A program made the translations under genes and the position numbers. The notes beneath the pieces were generated by a model. That model was not told where the DNA came from and ran no database searches. It saw only the letters and a program-made list of their open reading frames with translations. Shown here one piece after another: positions 23,351 through 62,504 of a stretch of DNA of 64,000 bases; within the stretch, counting starts at the first letter, position 1; the number at the start of each line of letters is the position of its first letter. Origin of the DNA: a virus; the IMG/VR virus record IMGVR_UViG_3300006793_000015, positions 50,470 to 114,469 of that record, one strand, 5' to 3'.

Positions 23351-23559
23351 TCCTTTGTTAAATATATAAAAGGAATGATTTCGCTATGAGTAATAAATTT
23401 GAACAGTTGCTTGAATATATCATCAACGAAGAGCAAGATAAAGCTAAAGAGCTTTTCCATGAAATTATTGTGGATAAATCTCGCGAGATTTATGAAGGCT
23501 TGATTGATGAGCAAGATCTTGAAGCTATCGAAGAGGAAATTGAAGAAGTAGATGAAGAA
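23351..23559 (+). repeat. direct repeat copy 1: promoter, ribosome-binding site and scaffold N-terminus
   Basis: This stretch and 24697-24930 share the TCCTTTGTTAAATAT promoter region, ATAAAAGGA(A/G)TGATTTCGCT leader and about 58 codons of coding sequence, with mostly synonymous or conservative changes. Copy 2 has roughly 28 extra bases in the leader. Confidence 0.85.
23357..23364 (+). promoter_or_regulatory. late promoter-like box GTTAAATA before the PcfJ-like scaffold gene
   Basis: GTTAAATA lies 21 nt before the ATG at 23386, with AAGGA between. The same box recurs before the second scaffold gene. Confidence 0.45.
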
Positions 23560-24642
23560 ATTTCCAAATTTTATAATCAAATATTAACTGAAGCAGATTT
23601 GCCGCCAGGCGAATTGAAAAAGCTCCATAGCGATATAGCCAAGATTCGTCGGGATACAGGTACTCAATCTGCTGAACATAATGCTTTCTTTAAAAAATTA
23701 ACGAAGGAAATTATTAATAATAATGTAGAAGGATTTAAGAATTTTATTAATAAAAAACCTGAGCCTTTAATGCCTTACCAAAAAGGATCTTATGTTGATC
23801 AACCTGAGAAGGCGCAAGATTTAGAATATGTTAAACGTAAGGCACCTGAGCAATGGGAGGCAATTATGGCTGTCCCGGCTGACAGTTCGATGCCCCCTGA
23901 ATTTAAGCCAGGAACTGCAACAGTATATATGCAATTTCATGGTTCAGTAGAAGATGATATTGCTATGTGGGTCAGTAGAGTGTTTGGTGGTGAAGACGCA
24001 GAGATTGAAGATGAAGATGAAGGTGCTCGTCCAGGGCAACATCCTTTTCGGAAATTTTGGGATTTGGTTCATGATGAAGAATTTATGAACAATGCAAACC
24101 CTGGTATTGTAAAAAAACTTACTGCTGTTAAAAAGAAATACATCAATGGCACATACAATCTTTATAATCTTGAAAAAACAACAAAAAAGCTTATGGCTGA
24201 CCTCGGTCAAAGATGGAAACATGATAAAGTAGAAAGGCAACGTTTAGAGACAGAAGCACCAATTATAATGAGATTTGATAATGGTTTTATGTGGGTGCGT
24301 TTAGATTCTATAGAAGAAATGCAACGCGAAGGCGACATGATGCAAAATTGCATTAGTGGTTATTGTCCAGTTGGCATAGAAGCCGATGATGATATAGAAA
24401 CTGGAGCAACTCCCGGTGGCCATTTAATTTATAGTTTGCGTGATAAGAATGGGGAATCTCATATATCTGCAGAATATGATCCAGATGTAGATATGAATAA
24501 TATACAGCCAACAGAAGCATTAGGCAAACAAAATAAAACAGCCATTAACAAATATAAACCATATATTAAAAAATTAAATGACTTCTTTGCAGAGAATCCT
24601 GAAACATTTGGTCCTAAAGGCAACACACAGGAAATGCAATAA
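23386..24642 (+). CDS. scaffold-type N-terminus fused to a PcfJ-like domain
   Basis: A 418-residue protein. Residues 1-58 (MSNKFEQLLEYIINEEQDKA onward) nearly duplicate the N-terminus of the acidic core protein encoded just downstream. The remainder differs completely: a linker with ILTEADLPPG, a basic helical region, then at about 299-402 a domain with MWVRLDSIEEMQREGDMMQN, CISGYCP, HLIYSLRDKNGESHISAEYD and ALGKQNKTAINKYKPYI. This matches the PcfJ-like pattern (HCVGxY, SLRDxxGxPHxTxE, QxxGKxN), a domain of unclear molecular function seen in phages and conjugative elements. The shared N-terminus may target it to the prohead core, so it could be packaged cargo. A terminator follows immediately. 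Confidence 0.7.
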   Translation: MSNKFEQLLEYIINEEQDKAKELFHEIIVDKSREIYEGLIDEQDLEAIEEEIEEVDEEISKFYNQILTEADLPPGELKKLHSDIAKIRRDTGTQSAEHNAFFKKLTKEIINNNVEGFKNFINKKPEPLMPYQKGSYVDQPEKAQDLEYVKRKAPEQWEAIMAVPADSSMPPEFKPGTATVYMQFHGSVEDDIAMWVSRVFGGEDAEIEDEDEGARPGQHPFRKFWDLVHDEEFMNNANPGIVKKLTAVKKKYINGTYNLYNLEKTTKKLMADLGQRWKHDKVERQRLETEAPIIMRFDNGFMWVRLDSIEEMQREGDMMQNCISGYCPVGIEADDDIETGATPGGHLIYSLRDKNGESHISAEYDPDVDMNNIQPTEALGKQNKTAINKYKPYIKKLNDFFAENPETFGPKGNTQEMQ

Positions 24643-24660
24643 GCAGATCTGCTTATTTTT
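24641..24660 (+). terminator. intrinsic terminator after PcfJ-like gene
   Basis: Perfect palindrome AAGCAGATCTGCTT (24641-24654) followed by ATTTTT, beginning inside the stop codon. Confidence 0.75.
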
Positions 24661-24696
24661 ATGCCATTTTGGCACTGTTTGAGCATAGAAACAGTT

Positions 24697-24930
24697 TCCT
24701 TTGTTAAATATAGATGATATTTTGTAACTTTTATATATAAAAGGAGTGATTTCGCTATGAGTAATAAATTTGAACAGTTGCTAGATTACATCATCAACGA
24801 AGAGCAAGATAAAGCTCGCGAACTTTTCCACGAAGTTGTTGTTGAAAAGTCACGTGAAATTTATGAAGGCTTAATTGATGAACAAGATCTTGATGCTATC
24901 GAAGAAGAGATTGAAGAAGTTGAAGAAGCA
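24697..24930 (+). repeat. direct repeat copy 2: promoter, ribosome-binding site and scaffold N-terminus
   Basis: Second copy of the segment at 23351-23559. Similarity ends at about codon 58, where the two proteins diverge (DEEISKFYN in copy 1, EEAISDEEV in copy 2). GTTAAATA recurs at 24703-24710. Confidence 0.85.
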
Positions 24931-25467
24931 ATCTCAGACGAGGAAGTAGAAGATTTTGTTAGTGATATTGAAGGCGACGAAGAAGGTATGTCTCTAGAAG
25001 ACGCAAGTGAAGAACTTGACGACGCTATGGACATGGAAGATGAAGGTGACTACGAAGGTGACGAAGAAGAAGCCGACGAAGAAACCGACGAAAGAATCAG
25101 TGATTTAGAATCTGCATTTGATGAACTTCAAGCAGAATTCGACAAGTTAATGTCAAGCGTTGAAGGCGATGATGCTGAAGAAGAAGCTGACATGGACGAC
25201 ATGGAAGACGAAATGGAAGAATCCGTTGAGTCAGACGAAGATTTAGAAGAGTCAGAAGAAGTAGTTGCTGAAGCTGCTGAACTAAAGCCAGTGCCTGCCC
25301 CAACAGGCGGCGCAAGTGAAGGTTCATCACCAGTTGCATCAGGTGGTAAGGCAAGCAATGATGCTCATGAACCAGGTGCAATGTCATCAGGCGAAGGTAA
25401 GAGTGCCCCTGCTCCAAAGGCAGACGATATGGACATGACTACAGAACCAGACATGAAGAAGGTTTAA
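24757..25467 (+). CDS. acidic prohead core/scaffold protein (gp68-like position)
   Basis: A 236-residue, extremely acidic protein. The N-terminal 58 residues form a helical segment shared with the upstream PcfJ-like protein; residues about 60-190 are dominated by Glu and Asp (DEEGMSLEDASEELDDAMD), and the end is Pro/Ala/Ser-rich (PAPTGGASEGSSPV, SAPAPKADD). It occupies the position of gp68, the small prohead core protein between portal and protease in T4. Acidic core proteins are cut to peptides by gp21 during head maturation; multiple L/I-x-E triplets are present. AAGGAG precedes the ATG by a suitable distance. The gp21 gene starts 12 nt downstream. Confidence 0.7.
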   Translation: MSNKFEQLLDYIINEEQDKARELFHEVVVEKSREIYEGLIDEQDLDAIEEEIEEVEEAISDEEVEDFVSDIEGDEEGMSLEDASEELDDAMDMEDEGDYEGDEEEADEETDERISDLESAFDELQAEFDKLMSSVEGDDAEEEADMDDMEDEMEESVESDEDLEESEEVVAEAAELKPVPAPTGGASEGSSPVASGGKASNDAHEPGAMSSGEGKSAPAPKADDMDMTTEPDMKKV

Positions 25468-54701: not shown

Positions 54702-55142
54702 ATGGCAAAGTATGCCCAAGGGAAGTTCATTCCAAAAAACTACAAAAAATATGTAGGAAAAGGATCACCAACTTATAGAAGCGGATGGGAATTTGCCTTT
54801 ATGAAGTTTTGTGATAATCACCCATCTGTTACAGAGTGGGCAAGTGAGCCGATGAGAATACCTTATCGTAATCCACTCACAGGAAAGCAAACAACATATG
54901 TGCCTGATTTTTTAATTGTTTACCAAGGGAGTGCTGGTAAACGACAAGCAGAATTAATAGAAGTAAAACCAAAAAGCCAAACTCTAATGGAACGAGCAGG
55001 AAAAAGTAAGTATAATCAAGCGCACGTAGCAGTTAACCACGCTAAATGGGAAGCGGCTTATAAATGGTGTAAGCAACAAGGTATACGGTTTCGCATTGTT
55101 ACCGAGGACGATATTTTTCACCAAGGTGGCAAAAAGAAATAA
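54702..55142 (+). CDS. gp4: head completion protein gp4 (TnsA/nuclease-fold)
   Basis: A 146-residue gp4-type head completion protein. Landmarks: YRSGWEFAFMKFCDNHPSVT, WASEPMRIPYRNPLTGKQTT, YVPDFLIVYQG and ELIEVKPKSQT, i.e. an E...D...ExK restriction-endonuclease-like core (E30-region, D in VPDF, E and K in IEVKPK). T4 gp4 is 150 residues and completes filled heads before tail joining. The catalytic-like residues are intact, so it may trim or protect DNA ends. It is the last recognised T4 gene before the four-gene cassette. Confidence 0.9.
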   Translation: MAKYAQGKFIPKNYKKYVGKGSPTYRSGWEFAFMKFCDNHPSVTEWASEPMRIPYRNPLTGKQTTYVPDFLIVYQGSAGKRQAELIEVKPKSQTLMERAGKSKYNQAHVAVNHAKWEAAYKWCKQQGIRFRIVTEDDIFHQGGKKK

Positions 55143-55168: not shown

Positions 55169-55897
55169 GTGTTACTTAAAAATCTAAACTATATTTTTGT
55201 CTGTTATCCACACGGTGGAGGCGGCGAATTCCTATCATACATTATAAGCAAAGCACCAGAGTGTAATACACTAGTGCGACGTAAGGTTGGCAATCGCACA
55301 AAAGTACACGATATTTTTAACCAGCATATGCTTAGAATGGATTTTAGTATTGATCGGTGTTTTAGTGATTACGGCGACAACGGTGATTTGTCAATGATAG
55401 ATCCAAACAAGCACGTTATAGTTCCAACACACTACAGAGAAAGCACGATAGGCAAGTATTTTAATAATTACAAGTTTGTTAATATTTTATATCCACATAC
55501 TCAAGAAGGGCATAAAAGAATTTTGCGTAATGTTAAAGATAAAGTGTGGTTGCAACCACAGCCTACACAGTTGGAATTTTTTGGTATGTTACAGCAGTTG
55601 GAAAAGACTGTTGGCAACAGAGATTGGTTTGTTAATACACACTTTTCGATGAATACAATTGATATTTTATTGTTGTCGAAGGGTAAAAAAATAACTGATG
55701 AGAATAGAGAACAGTTAGAGCGTGATTGGGATAATGGCGAACAACGAGTACATAAACAACAAGATGATAATTTATCAATTGAATATGAAAATATTGGAAA
55801 CGCATTACAACAAATTGGCGAATACTTAGACATTACAGTTACAGATGAAATGCTAACAGAATTTAAGAATAAAGTAAGCAATGATGAAAAAATATAA
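55169..55897 (+). CDS. cassette gene 1: hypothetical protein with YPHGGGGEF motif
   Basis: A 242-residue protein beginning at GTG without a clear ribosome-binding site. Near the start IFVCYPHGGGGEFLSYIISK is a strand-glycine loop-helix resembling P-loop proteins of the sulfotransferase type, and similar HG-x-GG-x-FL openings occur in phage proteins of unknown function. VIVPTHYRESTIGKYF could hold a second conserved motif. The rest is charged and helical. It is the first gene of a cluster in which coding ends overlap: its stop lies 17 nt inside the next gene. Expression together with the radical-SAM genes is evident; function is not. Confidence 0.55.
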   Translation: MLLKNLNYIFVCYPHGGGGEFLSYIISKAPECNTLVRRKVGNRTKVHDIFNQHMLRMDFSIDRCFSDYGDNGDLSMIDPNKHVIVPTHYRESTIGKYFNNYKFVNILYPHTQEGHKRILRNVKDKVWLQPQPTQLEFFGMLQQLEKTVGNRDWFVNTHFSMNTIDILLLSKGKKITDENREQLERDWDNGEQRVHKQQDDNLSIEYENIGNALQQIGEYLDITVTDEMLTEFKNKVSNDEKI

Positions 55898-56768
55898 CTT
55901 AAATTATATAGACGTAATGGTACAATACGCTTGTAGTTTATCCTGTAAGGGCTGTATTGTAATGTCTAACTATGATCGTAAAGGACATGTTTCTTGGAAG
56001 GAGGGCGAGCAGTGGCTTAAAGAATGGAGCACACGAATTAACCCAACCGAAGTCAATCTAATGGGAGGTGAACCACTACTTAACAAAGATTTCGAACAAT
56101 GGTTATATGGTGTGCGTGAGATATTCCCTAACTCACGTATAAAATTTATTACTAACGGGTTTCATTATAAAGTCCGTCCTAACTTATACCAGTGGTGTAA
56201 GGAAGTGGGTAATATATTGGTACAAACGAGTTTACACTATCGCCCTCCACCCATGGAATTTGTTGACAATATTATGTTTTTTCTTAAACAAACAGATTGG
56301 AAAATAGATAACACACCATTCACACAGGCAGAAAAACTTATGATGCTAACAGATAAAAACGCAAGTGTTAAATGGCATATGAATCTGTTTGGAGAGTTTA
56401 GGCGTCCGTTTATGGGAGAGGGAGCAGATATGTATCCTGCTAATAATGATGATTATGAAGGAGCGCACAGAGTTTGTGGATCGCCAAGTTCGCCTATTAT
56501 ATATAGAAATAAACTATATAAGTGCCCTGCTATTGCTAACCTAGAAGATACATTAAAAGTGTTTGGCAAGGAAAACGAAGAACAGTGGGCACCGTATCTA
56601 AACTCTGGATTAAACTACGACAGTGATTTGGTTGGATTTATAGACAATTATAATAAGCCAAATAGCATAGTATGTAAAGCATGTAGTAGTAATACAGCAG
56701 AGATAGAATACGACCATTATGAACAAGGAAATGTTATAACTAGAAAAGAATATAACAAAATAAAATGA
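55881..56768 (+). CDS. cassette gene 2: radical SAM protein with C-terminal cysteine cluster
   Basis: A 295-residue radical SAM enzyme. The [4Fe-4S]-binding CSLSCKGC provides C18, C22 and C25 of the CxxxCxxC motif; GGEP follows at 62-65 in NLMGGEPLLNKD, with a KFITNGF strand. The C-terminal part has further cysteines (RVCGSPSSPI, LYKCPAI, VCKACSS) like SPASM/twitch auxiliary cluster domains. Such enzymes modify peptides, sugars or cofactors by radical chemistry. It overlaps gene 1 by 17 nt and gene 3 by 4 nt (ATGA). The substrate is not identified. Confidence 0.8.
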   Translation: MMKKYNLNYIDVMVQYACSLSCKGCIVMSNYDRKGHVSWKEGEQWLKEWSTRINPTEVNLMGGEPLLNKDFEQWLYGVREIFPNSRIKFITNGFHYKVRPNLYQWCKEVGNILVQTSLHYRPPPMEFVDNIMFFLKQTDWKIDNTPFTQAEKLMMLTDKNASVKWHMNLFGEFRRPFMGEGADMYPANNDDYEGAHRVCGSPSSPIIYRNKLYKCPAIANLEDTLKVFGKENEEQWAPYLNSGLNYDSDLVGFIDNYNKPNSIVCKACSSNTAEIEYDHYEQGNVITRKEYNKIK

Positions 56769-57553
56769 GTAAATTAATTACTAGCGGGTGTGGAATTAGT
56801 CAAAGAGATTTTAAACATTATCCAATTTGGGTTCATTTTCCTACCATTAGCCATAAACTAAAACATATTTCTATCGGTGGCCCGGCAGTGGGAAACGAAT
56901 ACATAGGGCGAACATGTAAAAAACATATATTAGAAAATTTAGATGTTGAGGCAGTCATTATACAATGGACTAGTATTGGAAAACTTGATCTATTCGTAGA
57001 AAACGAAAACACTTTAGACGAAATCAAAGACTTTAATTTACGAAACTTTGTTGTTGATATGAATTCATCAGTAGTAAATCACAAAGGGTTTTGGCCTAGC
57101 AGTAACAGTAGTGATAATTTTTTAAAAGAACTGTATAATAATAATTTTAAGTCCAAGATTTACGATCATATAAAAGATCTAGAATATATATTAGACATTC
57201 AAACATTATGTGAATTACACGGTATACCTTATTACTTCTTTTTTGGATACGAGTTTGATTTTGAATTTATAAGAAACACTTCCGAATTGGAACACTTGTA
57301 TAAGAGTATAAACTGGAATAAATTTATGACTCGAACACCCATGTATGCTCTTTATCAAAATAGCGATGAATACAAGTTAGATATATTTGATAAAGATCCG
57401 AGATATATGTCACCAAACAGTGCATTCCAAATTAGTTTTTATATAAAATATATCGTTCCAATACTAAACGAACGGTTTACTCCTACTAAGTTTGATATAA
57501 CCCGCTTAGAAAATCATTGCATCAAATTGGCTAAAGAAATGAAGAACACATGA
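56765..57553 (+). CDS. cassette gene 3: SGNH-hydrolase-like protein (possibly inactive)
   Basis: A 262-residue protein. The N-terminal LITSGCGISQ resembles the first strand-Ser block of SGNH hydrolases, followed by ISIGGPAVGNEYIGR (block II/III Gly-Asn) and VEAVIIQWTSIGKLDL, similar to the VIVQWS strand of phage SGNH proteins. The usual C-terminal D-x-x-H is not obvious: the region reads DKDPRYMSPNSAFQISFY. So the fold is probable but hydrolysis is doubtful. It overlaps both radical-SAM genes by 4 nt (ATGA junctions), showing tight translational coupling. Role within the cassette unknown. Confidence 0.5.
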   Translation: MSKLITSGCGISQRDFKHYPIWVHFPTISHKLKHISIGGPAVGNEYIGRTCKKHILENLDVEAVIIQWTSIGKLDLFVENENTLDEIKDFNLRNFVVDMNSSVVNHKGFWPSSNSSDNFLKELYNNNFKSKIYDHIKDLEYILDIQTLCELHGIPYYFFFGYEFDFEFIRNTSELEHLYKSINWNKFMTRTPMYALYQNSDEYKLDIFDKDPRYMSPNSAFQISFYIKYIVPILNERFTPTKFDITRLENHCIKLAKEMKNT

Positions 57554-58515
57554 GTATTGTATTGCCTTTGAAGCGTGTGGCAGATAATATGCACGGCTTG
57601 CATGTAGAACTCACAACTAAATGTAATGCTTGGTGTCCGGGTTGTCCTAGAAGCAATAATGGGTTTGGTCTAAAAGAAGGTCATAAGTTGATCGATTTAG
57701 ATCCAGATCATTTACTAGACTTTGTTAGCAGAATGCCCAAACTAAGAGATATTTTGCTTTGTGGAAATAGAGGCGATCCCATTGCGTATAATAAAATAAA
57801 CTATCTATTAGAAAATTTATACCAACAAGAAAGAATGATTAATGTTGATATACACACAAATGGAGGTTTGCGCTCTACTAACTGGTGGCGTGATTTAGCA
57901 AGACAATGCAGAAACTACGATAAGTTTATGCAAGTATTTTTTTCTATTGATGGATTACAAGACACTAATCACATTTATAGACAAGGAACAGATTTTAATA
58001 AAATAATAAACAATGCAAAGTCTTTTATAGATGCTGGTGGAATTGCTAATTGGAGATTTTTAATATTCAAACACAACGCACATCAAATTGAAGAAGCAAG
58101 AACACTATCAAAGGAAATAGGGTTTAGTGATTTTATTACAGAAACGCCGTATATACCTATTGAGGCACGAAATTGGCAAACCGGCGAACATTATATTTTA
58201 TCAGCCGATAATGATCAAGAAGATGGTCCAGACATAACAAAGCAATCAATTGTCAATGCTAATATTTTTGATATAGAACATGAAAATAACTGGGTTGATG
58301 TTAAAGAATGCCAACACGTAACACTTCAACGTGTAGGAAACTATCGTAATTTTATAAGTGCAGAGGGAATAATTTACCCTTGTTGCTATTGGGAAGATGA
58401 AAGAAAAGAAACATATAATATAGAAACATTAGATATAATAACAGAATTTTCAAACAGAATGTATCGTAATACGTGTTTGGAAGTTTGTGGTACCACCAAA
58501 ATACAGAATAAATAA
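57550..58515 (+). CDS. cassette gene 4: second radical SAM protein with SPASM-like end
   Basis: A 321-residue radical SAM enzyme, unlike cassette gene 2 in detail. ELTTKCNAWCPGCPRS gives C25, C29 and C32 of CxxxCxxC. LRDILLCGNRGDPIAYNK replaces the GGEP region, and VDIHTNGGLRS and VFFSIDGLQDTNHIYR are typical core strands. Late cysteines (VKECQHV, GIIYPCCYWED, NTCLEVCGTT) form an auxiliary-cluster-like region. It is the last cassette gene, and the gp16 late promoter lies across its stop codon. Two distinct radical-SAM enzymes in a virion-gene region are unusual. The substrate is unknown. Confidence 0.8.
   Translation: MSIVLPLKRVADNMHGLHVELTTKCNAWCPGCPRSNNGFGLKEGHKLIDLDPDHLLDFVSRMPKLRDILLCGNRGDPIAYNKINYLLENLYQQERMINVDIHTNGGLRSTNWWRDLARQCRNYDKFMQVFFSIDGLQDTNHIYRQGTDFNKIINNAKSFIDAGGIANWRFLIFKHNAHQIEEARTLSKEIGFSDFITETPYIPIEARNWQTGEHYILSADNDQEDGPDITKQSIVNANIFDIEHENNWVDVKECQHVTLQRVGNYRNFISAEGIIYPCCYWEDERKETYNIETLDIITEFSNRMYRNTCLEVCGTTKIQNK
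58507..58514 (+). promoter_or_regulatory. late promoter box AATAAATA, 5 nt before gp16 ATG
   Basis: AATAAATA-ACACT-ATG; the box overlaps the stop of the second radical-SAM gene. Confidence 0.65.
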
Positions 58516-58519
58516 CACT

Positions 58520-59011
58520 ATGACAAAGAAACTAGAGGAACTTTTTGATTTAGCACAACCAGAACCAGAAGAGCCGCCATCGGACTTTAAACCGGCTGAC
58601 GCTAATAAATTAAAAACAGTATTGAATGATGTAGACAAAATAGACAGTGCTTTACCACTTGTTAGAGATTTAGAATCAAATGACACGGAAATGGATACCA
58701 TCGCTGAAAAGTCTATGTCAACATTCAATGATCTTATGGATTTAGGTATGAATGTAGAAGCACGATACGCAGGTAAGATATTTGAAGTAGCAGGAACAAT
58801 GATGAAAAACGCTATCGACGCTAGATCAGCAAAGGTAGACAAGAAATTACGTATGGTTGAACTACAGATTAAAAAACAACGAGTAGATCAACAAGAGCAA
58901 AGCGCCGGCGGCCCACTAGAAATAGAGGCAGAGGCAACTATCGTAGCGGATCGCAACGAATTAATTAGGCAAATTTTAGACAAAGGCAAAGACAACGCGG
59001 ATAAAAAATAG
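58520..59011 (+). CDS. gp16: small terminase subunit gp16
   Basis: A 163-residue small terminase. I start it at 58520 (MTKKLEELFDL), not at the in-frame ATG at 58487 inside the previous gene: the late box ends 5 nt before 58520. Family-typical helical segments: EKSMSTFNDLMDLGMNVEAR, YAGKIFEVAGTMMKNAIDAR and SAKVDKKLRMVELQIKKQRV. T4 gp16 is 164 residues, the same size. It forms a ring that regulates gp17 and binds DNA at packaging initiation. It is separated from gp17 by three virion-type genes, unlike T4 where the two are adjacent. Confidence 0.93.
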   Translation: MTKKLEELFDLAQPEPEEPPSDFKPADANKLKTVLNDVDKIDSALPLVRDLESNDTEMDTIAEKSMSTFNDLMDLGMNVEARYAGKIFEVAGTMMKNAIDARSAKVDKKLRMVELQIKKQRVDQQEQSAGGPLEIEAEATIVADRNELIRQILDKGKDNADKK

Positions 59012-60926: not shown

Positions 60927-62504
60927 ATGTCCTCACTTGACGGAAACTTAGTAAAAAAAGCACACACCAAAGAATCATACACAGATGAGCAACTCTTAGA
61001 ACTTGCTAAATGTGCTGATCCTGACACTGGTCCTGCTTATTTTTTAGAAAACTATTTTTGGATTCAACACCCACGCAGAGGTAGAATACAATACCATGCG
61101 TATGAATATCAAAAACGTTTACTGGAAAGTTACCACACTCACAGATTTAGCGTTAACTTGATGCCACGGCAAACAGGTAAAACTACTACTGCGGCAGGAT
61201 ACTTGTTATGGTATACTATGTTTGTTCCAGACAGTACAATACTTGTTGCGGCGCACAAGTATGCCGGTTCACAAGAAATTATGCAACGTATACGATATTC
61301 ATACGAAGATGTACCTGATTTTATTCGGCCTGGCGTTTACTCATACAATAAAGGTAGCATAGACTTTGATAATGGTAGTAGAATTGTCAGCACAACTACT
61401 ACAGAAAATACAGGGCGTGGTTTGTCCATCTCACTATTATACTTAGACGAGTTTGCGTTTGTAAAGCCTAACATTGCGAAAGAATTTTGGACATCCATAT
61501 CTCCAACACTAGCAACTGGTGGTGGCGCTATTATTACCTCAACACCAAACAGTGATGAGGATCAGTTTGCTATGATATGGAGAGAAGCAAATAAAACAAT
61601 AGACGAACATGGCAACCAAACAGATTTAGGTCGTAATGGATTTTTTGCGTTTAGAGCATATTGGAATGAACATCCAGATCGTGATGAAAAATGGAGACAA
61701 GAAGAACTTGGACGTATTGGCGCAGAACGCTTTGCCCGCGAGCATGAATGTGAGTTTGTTATTAATGACGAGACACTTATTGATTCAAGAGTTTTAGCAT
61801 CACTACGCCCAAAAGACGTTTTACAAAACCAAGGACAAGTTAGATGGTATAGCAAACCACAAAAAGGACACAATTATTTAATAGCATTAGATCCAAGTTT
61901 AGGAACAGGTGGTGATAACGCCGCCATACAAGTGTTTGAAATACCCACGATGAAACAAGTAGCAGAGTGGATGCATAATAAAACGCCAGTCCAAGGGCAA
62001 ATAAAAATATTAAGAGATATCACACATTACATTTCAGAAGAAATAGGTGCAAAGAATTTAGATGTTCCGCAAATATGGTTTAGTATTGAGAACAATACAC
62101 TGGGTGAAGCCGCACTTGTGGTTATAGACGACTTAGGCGAGGAACAATTTAATGGCGTGTTTCTGTCTGAAACTAAAAAGCACGGAAATGCTAGAAGGTT
62201 TAGAAAAGGATTTAATACCACACATAAGTCAAAATTGCTATCTTGTAGTAGATTAAAGAATCTAATCGAAACAGACAAGATAGAGATTCGCAGTAAAAAT
62301 TTAATATCAGAACTAAAAACATATATAGCGAGAGGGCAAAGTTATGCCGCAAAAGATGGCGAAACAGACGATTTAGTAGCCGCAACACTATTAATAATAC
62401 GAATGAGTTATGAAGTAAGGCAATGGGATACTGGATTATTTGACAGACTAAAAGACGATATAGATTCTGAACAAGATATGCCAATGCCATTTATCATGCT
62501 TTAA
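60927..62504 (+). CDS. gp17: large terminase subunit gp17
   Basis: A 525-residue packaging motor. ATPase: adenine-binding HAYEYQKRLL, Walker A NLMPRQTGKTTTAAG near residue 80, Walker B SLLYLDEFAFV near 175 and the coupling motif ITSTPNSDEDQF. Nuclease: LIALDPSLGTGGDNAAIQVF with the catalytic Asp, IWFSIENNTLGEAALVVIDD and a final GETDDLVAATLL. T4 gp17 is 610 residues; the version here lacks extra N-terminal length. It lies downstream of gp16 and packages headful DNA. Late box ends 5 nt before its ATG. Confidence 0.97.
   Translation: MSSLDGNLVKKAHTKESYTDEQLLELAKCADPDTGPAYFLENYFWIQHPRRGRIQYHAYEYQKRLLESYHTHRFSVNLMPRQTGKTTTAAGYLLWYTMFVPDSTILVAAHKYAGSQEIMQRIRYSYEDVPDFIRPGVYSYNKGSIDFDNGSRIVSTTTTENTGRGLSISLLYLDEFAFVKPNIAKEFWTSISPTLATGGGAIITSTPNSDEDQFAMIWREANKTIDEHGNQTDLGRNGFFAFRAYWNEHPDRDEKWRQEELGRIGAERFAREHECEFVINDETLIDSRVLASLRPKDVLQNQGQVRWYSKPQKGHNYLIALDPSLGTGGDNAAIQVFEIPTMKQVAEWMHNKTPVQGQIKILRDITHYISEEIGAKNLDVPQIWFSIENNTLGEAALVVIDDLGEEQFNGVFLSETKKHGNARRFRKGFNTTHKSKLLSCSRLKNLIETDKIEIRSKNLISELKTYIARGQSYAAKDGETDDLVAATLLIIRMSYEVRQWDTGLFDRLKDDIDSEQDMPMPFIML

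Follow-up and report, generated by a model that had tools for sequence, protein, structure and literature searches.

What are four closely packed genes, two of which encode radical-SAM enzymes, doing among the virion genes of a T4-like marine virus? The window, i.e., the whole stretch of 64,000 nucleotides analysed here, holds such a cassette at positions 55169-58515 on the plus strand, flanked by gp4 and gp16. Its left border is a gene for a gp4-like head completion/closure protein (54702..55142, +; phrog_218, 6.6e-45; PF08722, a TnsA-like fold, 1.1e-25), its right border one for a gp16-like small terminase (58520..59011, +; phrog_16202, 1.8e-13; phrog_445, small terminase, 3.5e-4), and a large terminase is recognised by sequence at 60927-62504. 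The profile matches of the two neighbours bear out the location that an earlier note had assigned to the cassette. The four genes, all on the plus strand, are G1, which starts with GTG (55169..55897), the radical-SAM gene G2 (55881..56768), G3 for an SGNH-type protein (56765..57553), and a second, different radical-SAM gene, G4 (57550..58515). Recomputing the coordinates reproduced the reported reading frames and their overlaps of 17, 4 and 4 nt exactly. G1 and G2 overlap by 17 nt in each of the seven variants compared, whereas the overlaps of G2/G3 and G3/G4 differ among the seven (4-20 and 4-23 nt, respectively), and the G4/gp16 boundary is free of overlap if gp16 starts at the ATG at 58520. 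Gene overlap by itself is unremarkable in the window, where it occurs in 10 of 43 same-strand neighbour pairs. All four cassette genes are under purifying selection (dN/dS 0.04-0.21). Late transcription of the cassette, also proposed in the note, we infer only from its position; the late-promoter motif TATAAATA was not found within the cassette, and in the window it is not above chance.

The order G1-G2-G3-G4 between gp4 and gp16 recurs in 25 IMG/VR contigs, which are every sufficiently long relative and represent roughly nine sequence variants with identities down to 40-66%; the linkage of the four genes is therefore conserved in relatives. The cassette is an insertion, because 45 of 60 related viruses have an empty site, with gp4 running directly into gp16. 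Other cargo seen at this junction comprises, among others, a radical-SAM gene and sulfotransferase-like genes. Although the four genes, originally treated as one unit, do keep their order at gp4/gp16, the core unit is the trio G1-G2-G3, from which G4 is separable. Other T4-like viruses carry the trio between gp47 and gp46, and it also appears in the permuted order G2-G3-G1 at further loci away from both the gp47/46 and the gp4/16 operons. It is found without an adjoining G4, and G4 homologues are found without it, including beside gp47/gp46; as a radical-SAM enzyme, G4 was recruited separately. At loci of the trio clade, G3 adjoins G2 in 23 of 23 cases, and G1 is adjacent in 19 of 23. G1 is essentially single copy and was seen only in the trio; G3 is likewise confined to the trio, with one copy in each genome, except for one weak partial match in a single genome (G004). 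The trees of G1, G2, and G3 agree, with congruent distances (r 0.79-0.94; as high in 0 of 2000 permutations), and the distance comparison nests one trio from the gp4/gp16 site (L195) among those from gp47/gp46. Taken together, these comparisons show that G1-G2-G3 is a co-inherited, exchangeable module inserted at different core-gene junctions of T4-like viruses, and that in the window virus the module occupies gp4/gp16 and is followed by an added second radical-SAM gene, G4. Because the same trio occupies the gp47-gp46 operon elsewhere, the virion-region setting holds for the window virus but is not a constant feature. A tblastn search of 50,697 phage records with G3 (the window copy and two distant copies) gave no match, so there is neither an isolate nor a host for G3-bearing phages.

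The chemistry of the module is best approached through G2, for which the assignment as a radical-SAM enzyme with a C-terminal Cys cluster proved sound. Its PF04055 match (2e-10; 41.5 bits) is above the cut-off of 29.5, and the core motifs CxxxCxxC (C18, C22, C25) and GGEP as well as the C-terminal C199, C215, C265, and C268 are present in 22 of 22 members, all seven Cys being retained down to 25% identity in the 22-member alignment. With four C-terminal Cys and a single predicted auxiliary [4Fe-4S] cluster, G2 would be classed by sequence as a twitch-type enzyme. A PDB profile search gave 7wzv as the best match (3e-18), with MoaA (5e-8), YydG (1e-7), and BtrN (7e-4) also matched, the last in the core only. 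In its size, CxxxCxxC core, four C-terminal Cys, and CxxC end, G2 resembles other twitch enzymes and BtrN, a 2-deoxy-scyllo-inosamine dehydrogenase whose auxiliary cluster is bound by four Cys and has been proposed as the electron acceptor (PMC9012708). In contrast to BtrN, G2 is linked to G1 and G3. Bacterial relatives of G2 are distant (25-38% identity, mostly over the radical-SAM core). A viperin-like antiviral or superinfection function via modified nucleotides, to which a weak match to PADLOC pVip (1.1e-6) might point, is extremely unlikely, as that match is limited to the shared radical-SAM core (residues 12-96) and G2 carries the predicted twitch cluster. G2 was rejected as a viperin on the NCBIfam model, which gives 22.5 bits against a cut-off of 180.

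G4 also belongs to the radical-SAM superfamily, judged by its CxxxCxxC motif (C25/C29/C32 in 16 of 16 members) and its matches to phrog_21308 (5e-20) and TIGR04317 (7e-14); PF04055 misses the window protein and scores 33.8 bits with a relative (G001:146646-147110). That G4 is a second, different radical-SAM enzyme stands, but the SPASM-like end once ascribed to it does not: instead of the seven Cys and two auxiliary clusters of a full SPASM domain it has five conserved C-terminal Cys (C254, C278, C279, C309, C313; Cys overall in 15-16 of 16 members), nearer to a single-cluster twitch, and PF13186 has no match to the window protein. The Cys motifs of the radical-SAM genes are retained in all relatives examined, and G4 is duplicated at two loci (L011/L047). 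The best curated match of G4, TIGR04317, models a tungsten-cofactor oxidoreductase maturase, and the module might accordingly be thought to support a host enzyme through auxiliary metabolism or cofactor maturation while making no decoration; a host-fitness role was indeed suggested by the authors of the work on phage CP220 (PMC2853527). However, G4 is not in the TIGR04317 family, its score of 51.6 bits being below the cut-off of 380. Moreover, the module has no linked oxidoreductase target, and the pairing with an inactive SGNH protein would be left without explanation. We regard this possibility as quite unlikely.

The two remaining proteins are less conventional. G3 aligns with a phage SGNH-like family (hhalign, 96.6% probability, E 5.7e-10), and the doubt previously raised about its catalysis was well placed: in this profile-profile match its G8-C9-G10 (GCG) is aligned to GDS/GCS in 18 of 18 members, which puts Gly at the position of the catalytic Ser, and no block V His is aligned in the 18-member alignment. 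G3 was rejected as an SGNH hydrolase on these two points and is probably not a hydrolase. It thus matches the N-terminal blocks of SGNH/GDSL-like marine phage proteins, including Pfam DUF6071 members, but differs from them in lacking both the Ser and an aligned block V His. The AlphaFold2 models of G3 and G1, which predate the deeper alignments, have pLDDT values of 44 and 45. The description of G1 as P-loop-like has to be abandoned, as no Walker A Lys is present in any of the 16 family members, which share instead a conserved loop Y-P/D-x-x-G-x-G-G-E. G1 leans weakly to the sulfotransferase superfamily: the family consensus matches Sulfotransfer_1 at 5e-4 (19.9 bits, below the Pfam cut-off of 22, and over residues 177-225 only), and its best PDB profile matches are sulfotransferases (E 0.05-0.2). 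Window G1 itself has no Pfam Sulfotransfer match, and the PAPS 5'-phosphosulfate loop PxSGT is not recognisable in the family alignment; on these two points G1 does not qualify as a PAPS sulfotransferase. Comparisons by hhalign with two phage sulfotransferase-like proteins, and with the 'YPSGG-G' proteins that fill the G1 slot at three loci (L191, L192, L197; 1.9% probability), were not significant.

The absence of a Walker A Lys from every G1 also bears on whether the module hypermodifies DNA or nucleotides and so shields the phage genome, coupled to replication and packaging. The gp4/16 and gp47/46 sites both lie in DNA-processing operons, and the profile search with G2 also matched the GTP enzyme MoaA. 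Nevertheless, G1 is no P-loop kinase, the cassette lacks a known hypermodification partner, and permuted trios lie away from both operons, which makes such a function very unlikely.

Neighbouring genes offer a further indication of the substrate. An amidinotransferase-like gene adjoins the trio in 7 of 23 loci and lies within a few kb in two more, against 3 of 22 control loci, all of these being counts of contigs that include some near-duplicates. In a second G2 clade, an amidinotransferase of a different subfamily directly precedes G2 in 15 loci. No amidinotransferase was found near the cassette in the window clade, and the L196-type enzyme is absent from the 114 kb of the incomplete window virus record. 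Synechococcus phage S-SCSM2R carries a distant G2 among glycosyltransferases, an AHBA-synthase-like gene, and an 'inosamine amidinotransferase', and GT2 glycosyltransferases make up 18 of 115 neighbours of the distant bacterial G2 relatives. Elsewhere in its genome, the window virus has a seven-gene radical-SAM array near carbamoyltransferase, DegT aminotransferase, epimerase, and SGNH genes. The amidinotransferase and glycosyltransferase neighbours make a small molecule or a glycan a likelier substrate than a peptide. Peptides are frequent substrates of radical-SAM/SPASM enzymes, however, and the closest named structures to G2 include, besides BtrN and MoaA, the peptide enzyme YydG, which counts against a glycan or small molecule. 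A cross-link, epimer, or other change introduced into a virion or host protein, or into a distant precursor peptide, would also suit a cassette lying among virion genes, as it does in the window clade. Yet the virion neighbours are ordinary and not the same at each site, and, as in the initial reading of the window, no precursor is evident: no small conserved ORF lies beside the module at gp4/gp16, gp47/gp46, or any other insertion site, on which grounds a RiPP gene cluster was rejected. Protein modification is, in our judgement, unlikely but worth keeping in mind.

A modification pathway, as the note proposed, is still the best reading, with a peptide substrate now less favoured. At a probability of roughly 0.4, we propose an exchangeable pathway for the radical oxidation of a putative sugar or small molecule that carries an amino or hydroxyl group, probably for glycan decoration. 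During infection, the trio would belong to a small biosynthetic pathway in which G2 may take hydrogen from a substrate with an alcohol or amine group and pass the electron to its auxiliary cluster, predicted to have four Cys ligands as in BtrN, completing a two-electron oxidation. G3, with an SGNH fold but no nucleophile, may hold or present the substrate instead of hydrolysing it; G1 may be a transferase, with sulfo-transfer as the leading guess; and G4 could carry out a second radical step. The product might often bear a guanidino group, because many other viruses have an amidinotransferase gene immediately ahead of G2 or the trio. The likeliest end use would be decoration of a surface glycan, on the host envelope or the virion. 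It is rather unlikely that the trio is a new, portable, self-contained radical-SAM pathway, often joined by an amidinotransferase and plugged into different core operons, for a guanidino- or oxidised-amino-sugar/cyclitol decoration not known from the hosts, with the dead SGNH protein carrying the substrate.

Radical-SAM genes are numerous in marine and Campylobacter T4-like phages, and the trio is the smallest recurrent unit defined among such genes. Two of its three members represent new families, for which Pfam, PHROG, and NCBIfam give no confident match, and the three occur essentially only together. It offers a concrete three-protein system for expression and assay, tied to amidinotransferases and glycan-type genes, and it marks the gp4/gp16 and gp47/gp46 junctions as cargo sites within otherwise rigid core operons. 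The host-recognition cluster of pelagimyophages contains radical-SAM cassettes (PMC7029224), and many radical-SAM genes occur in T4-like TARA genomes (PMC5332604). Like the viruses studied here, these are marine and T4-like, and radical-SAM genes abound in them next to genes for glycosyltransferases and deoxysugars. The subject of those papers, however, is the variable host-recognition region or entire genomes, whereas the trio is conserved in composition and lies in core replication or packaging operons. Closer still is the interchangeable radical-SAM/amidinotransferase module of the Campylobacter phages CP220 and CPt10 (PMC2853527), which are also T4-like and whose multi-gene radical-SAM cluster, with an amidinotransferase inside, varies between close relatives and was seemingly acquired en masse; CP220 even carries G4 homologues. 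In contrast to that module, for which G1 and G3 were not reported, the present one has a fixed set of three genes and sits at defined junctions between core genes, with an amidinotransferase-like gene adjacent at some trio loci and the L196-type enzyme missing from the window virus record. Phage modules of radical-SAM enzymes and amidinotransferases were already known from CP220 and CPt10, and the trio may be a variant of them.

The four genes that the earlier note read as one coupled cassette, G1 (55169-55897), G2 (55881-56768), G3 (56765-57553) and G4 (57550-58515, all on the plus strand), lie where they were claimed to lie, with overlaps of 17, 4 and 4 nt, and the observation of a cassette is real. 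Its left neighbour is a gp4-like head closure gene (54702-55142; phrog_218, 6.6e-45) and its right neighbour is gp16-like (58520-59011; phrog_445, 3.5e-4), with the large terminase downstream from 60927; the window forms the right end (64 kb) of a virus record of 114,469 bases. Because genes often overlap at their starts in this genome (10/43 same-strand neighbours), the overlaps alone tell little; that between G1 and G2 is constant at 17 nt in seven relatives. Purifying selection acts on all four genes, with dN/dS of 0.13 for G1, 0.07-0.09 for G2, 0.04-0.06 for G3 and 0.13-0.21 for G4; these values are close to those of the virion neighbours or slightly higher. Upstream of the prohead genes, two adjoining ORFs of 418 and 236 aa (23386-25467) share nearly identical first ~50 residues (MSNKFEQLL..YIINEEQDKA..), a tandem duplication.

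The cassette is an insertion between gp4 and gp16. Both genes could be located in 60 related contigs; in 45 of these, gp16 directly follows gp4 with a gap of 8-41 nt, and the others carry short ORFs or cargo of similar type, such as a sulfotransferase-like gene in contig L281 (PF03567, 3.8e-9) and a radical-SAM gene in L276 (PF04055, 1.3e-7). The junction looks like a cargo site within the core operon. 'HIPKTGGSS' sulfotransferase-like or radical-SAM genes were seen there in L281, L286, L289, L303, L306, L308, L265 and L276, including one tandem pair of the former. Cassette-bearing records (92-323 kb) have 8-19 radical-SAM domains each, and ten records drawn from the survey of empty sites (20-67 kb each; most have an empty site, two have other cargo) have one in total.

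The proposed linkage holds in close relatives, where every G3-bearing contig of sufficient length has the order gp4-G1-G2-G3-G4-gp16 (G3 occurs in 25 IMG/VR contigs, many of them near-duplicates, as about nine sequence variants), but the unit is not one of four genes: it is the trio G1-G2-G3. G4 is the least conserved member (40-54%) and is present twice in L011 and L047; several relatives have, behind gp16, a fifth gene encoding a radical-SAM protein of ~400 aa whose N-terminus carries a twitch (SPASM PF13186, 5.8e-17; PF04055, 1.9e-9). Extending the search with the G2 alignment gave 23 loci at 26-35% identity, with G3 adjoining G2 in 23/23 and G1 beside them in 19/23; gp47 and gp46 flank 18 of these loci, gp4 and gp16 flank one (L195), and in four (L188, L198, L201, L217) the order is permuted to G2-G3-G1. 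In a set of 17 records, G1 and G3 profile matches are single per genome and confined to the trio, except for one partial G3 match (9e-5) in virus record G004; this search detected no G1 in records G007 and G011. Pairwise distances of the three proteins are congruent (Mantel r 0.79, 0.81 and 0.94; 0/2000 permutations reached such values). The concatenated tree nests L195 with the gp47/gp46 trios, apart from the window clade, and the trio has therefore switched site more than once. G4-like genes without the trio occur on either side of gp46, and G4 is therefore a separate recruit. Such genes flank gp46 on both sides in other T4-like viruses (L016, L022, L024, L030, L032, L036), their start and stop codons almost touching the core genes. 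At L191:7163-8011, L192:2476-3318 and L197:9467-10429, the place of G1 beside G2-G3 is taken by another family with a YPSGG-G loop; considered as G1 homologues, these proteins had no detectable homology to G1.

G2 keeps its CxxxCxxC and GGEP motifs and four C-terminal Cys in 22/22 members, down to 25% identity. Its profile matches radical-SAM structures of several kinds, among them MoaA, YydG and BtrN, the best being the unnamed structure 7wzv, on which a search of open-licence papers found no publication. G4 is also a radical-SAM protein, with five conserved Cys at its C-terminal end; its best curated match, TIGR04317, scores far under that model's cut-off. The suspicion that G3 is SGNH-like with doubtful catalysis was borne out by a profile-profile comparison, which aligned it with SGNH-like proteins of phages (96.6%, E 5.7e-10) and put Gly10 at the position of the catalytic Ser. 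All members (18/18) share GCG, there is no conserved block V His, and G3 has lost the SGNH nucleophile. G1 alone has no family match and no Walker A Lys; its family consensus matches Sulfotransfer_1 over the C-terminal 'YEDL' stretch (5e-4, below cut-off), and its top PDB profile matches are sulfotransferases (E 0.05-0.2).

In the proposed pathway, G2 would oxidize the substrate by radical chemistry, G3 may serve a carrier or binding role, G1 would perform a transfer step, and the product would be a glycan or small molecule. A peptide as the target of the radical-SAM chemistry is less likely, because no precursor was found at any insertion site. DNA modification, a viperin-type function and cofactor maturation each find little support.

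As to a glycan or small-molecule product, an amidinotransferase-like gene directly adjoins the module in 7/23 trio loci and lies within a few kb in two more; in a second G2 clade, which comprises 15 loci and lacks G3, the gene immediately upstream is an amidinotransferase from another subfamily, and 3/22 control loci retrieved with G4 have an amidinotransferase. All these counts include near-duplicate contigs. The trio-adjacent assignment is based on matches to HsvA (0.008) and PF02274 (0.024) and on similarity (4e-8) to a CP220 protein annotated as a pentein in its record. In the second clade (L200, L202-L204, L206-L212, L214-L216, L218), the amidinotransferase precedes G2 every time and is 39-41% identical to an S-SCSM2R protein annotated as inosamine amidinotransferase. 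Phage S-SCSM2R itself has a distant G2 inside a glycosyltransferase/AHBA-synthase-like/inosamine-amidinotransferase cluster, and distant relatives in bacteria are surrounded by glycosyltransferases (GT2, 18/115 neighbours, a raw count without matched control). The window's own genome has, outside the window, seven consecutive radical-SAM/twitch genes (G000:C1:22240-31262 (-); L099:3240-12262) near carbamoyltransferase, DegT aminotransferase, epimerase, PIG-L and SGNH genes, with sulfotransferase-like genes also close. Virus contig L073 (1-16750) contains three distant G2 relatives, with neighbours that by sequence appearance are 2OG-oxygenase-like, amidinotransferase-like, aminotransferase-like and further radical-SAM genes.

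In the open-licence literature, we found no earlier report that describes the trio, treats G1 or G3 as a family, or places the trio at the gp4/gp16 and gp47/gp46 junctions. Radical-SAM clusters in phages have already been reported: CP220 and CPt10 each have an interchangeable block in which an amidinotransferase accompanies five radical-SAM genes (PMC2853527), 12 radical-SAM genes occur in a T4-like TARA genome (PMC5332604), and radical-SAM cassettes distinguish the host-recognition clusters of pelagimyophages (PMC7029224). With four Cys at its auxiliary site, G2 resembles BtrN, which also has four, and is unlike MoaA, which has three (PMC9012708); hence, the oxidation proposed for G2 would be a two-electron reaction.
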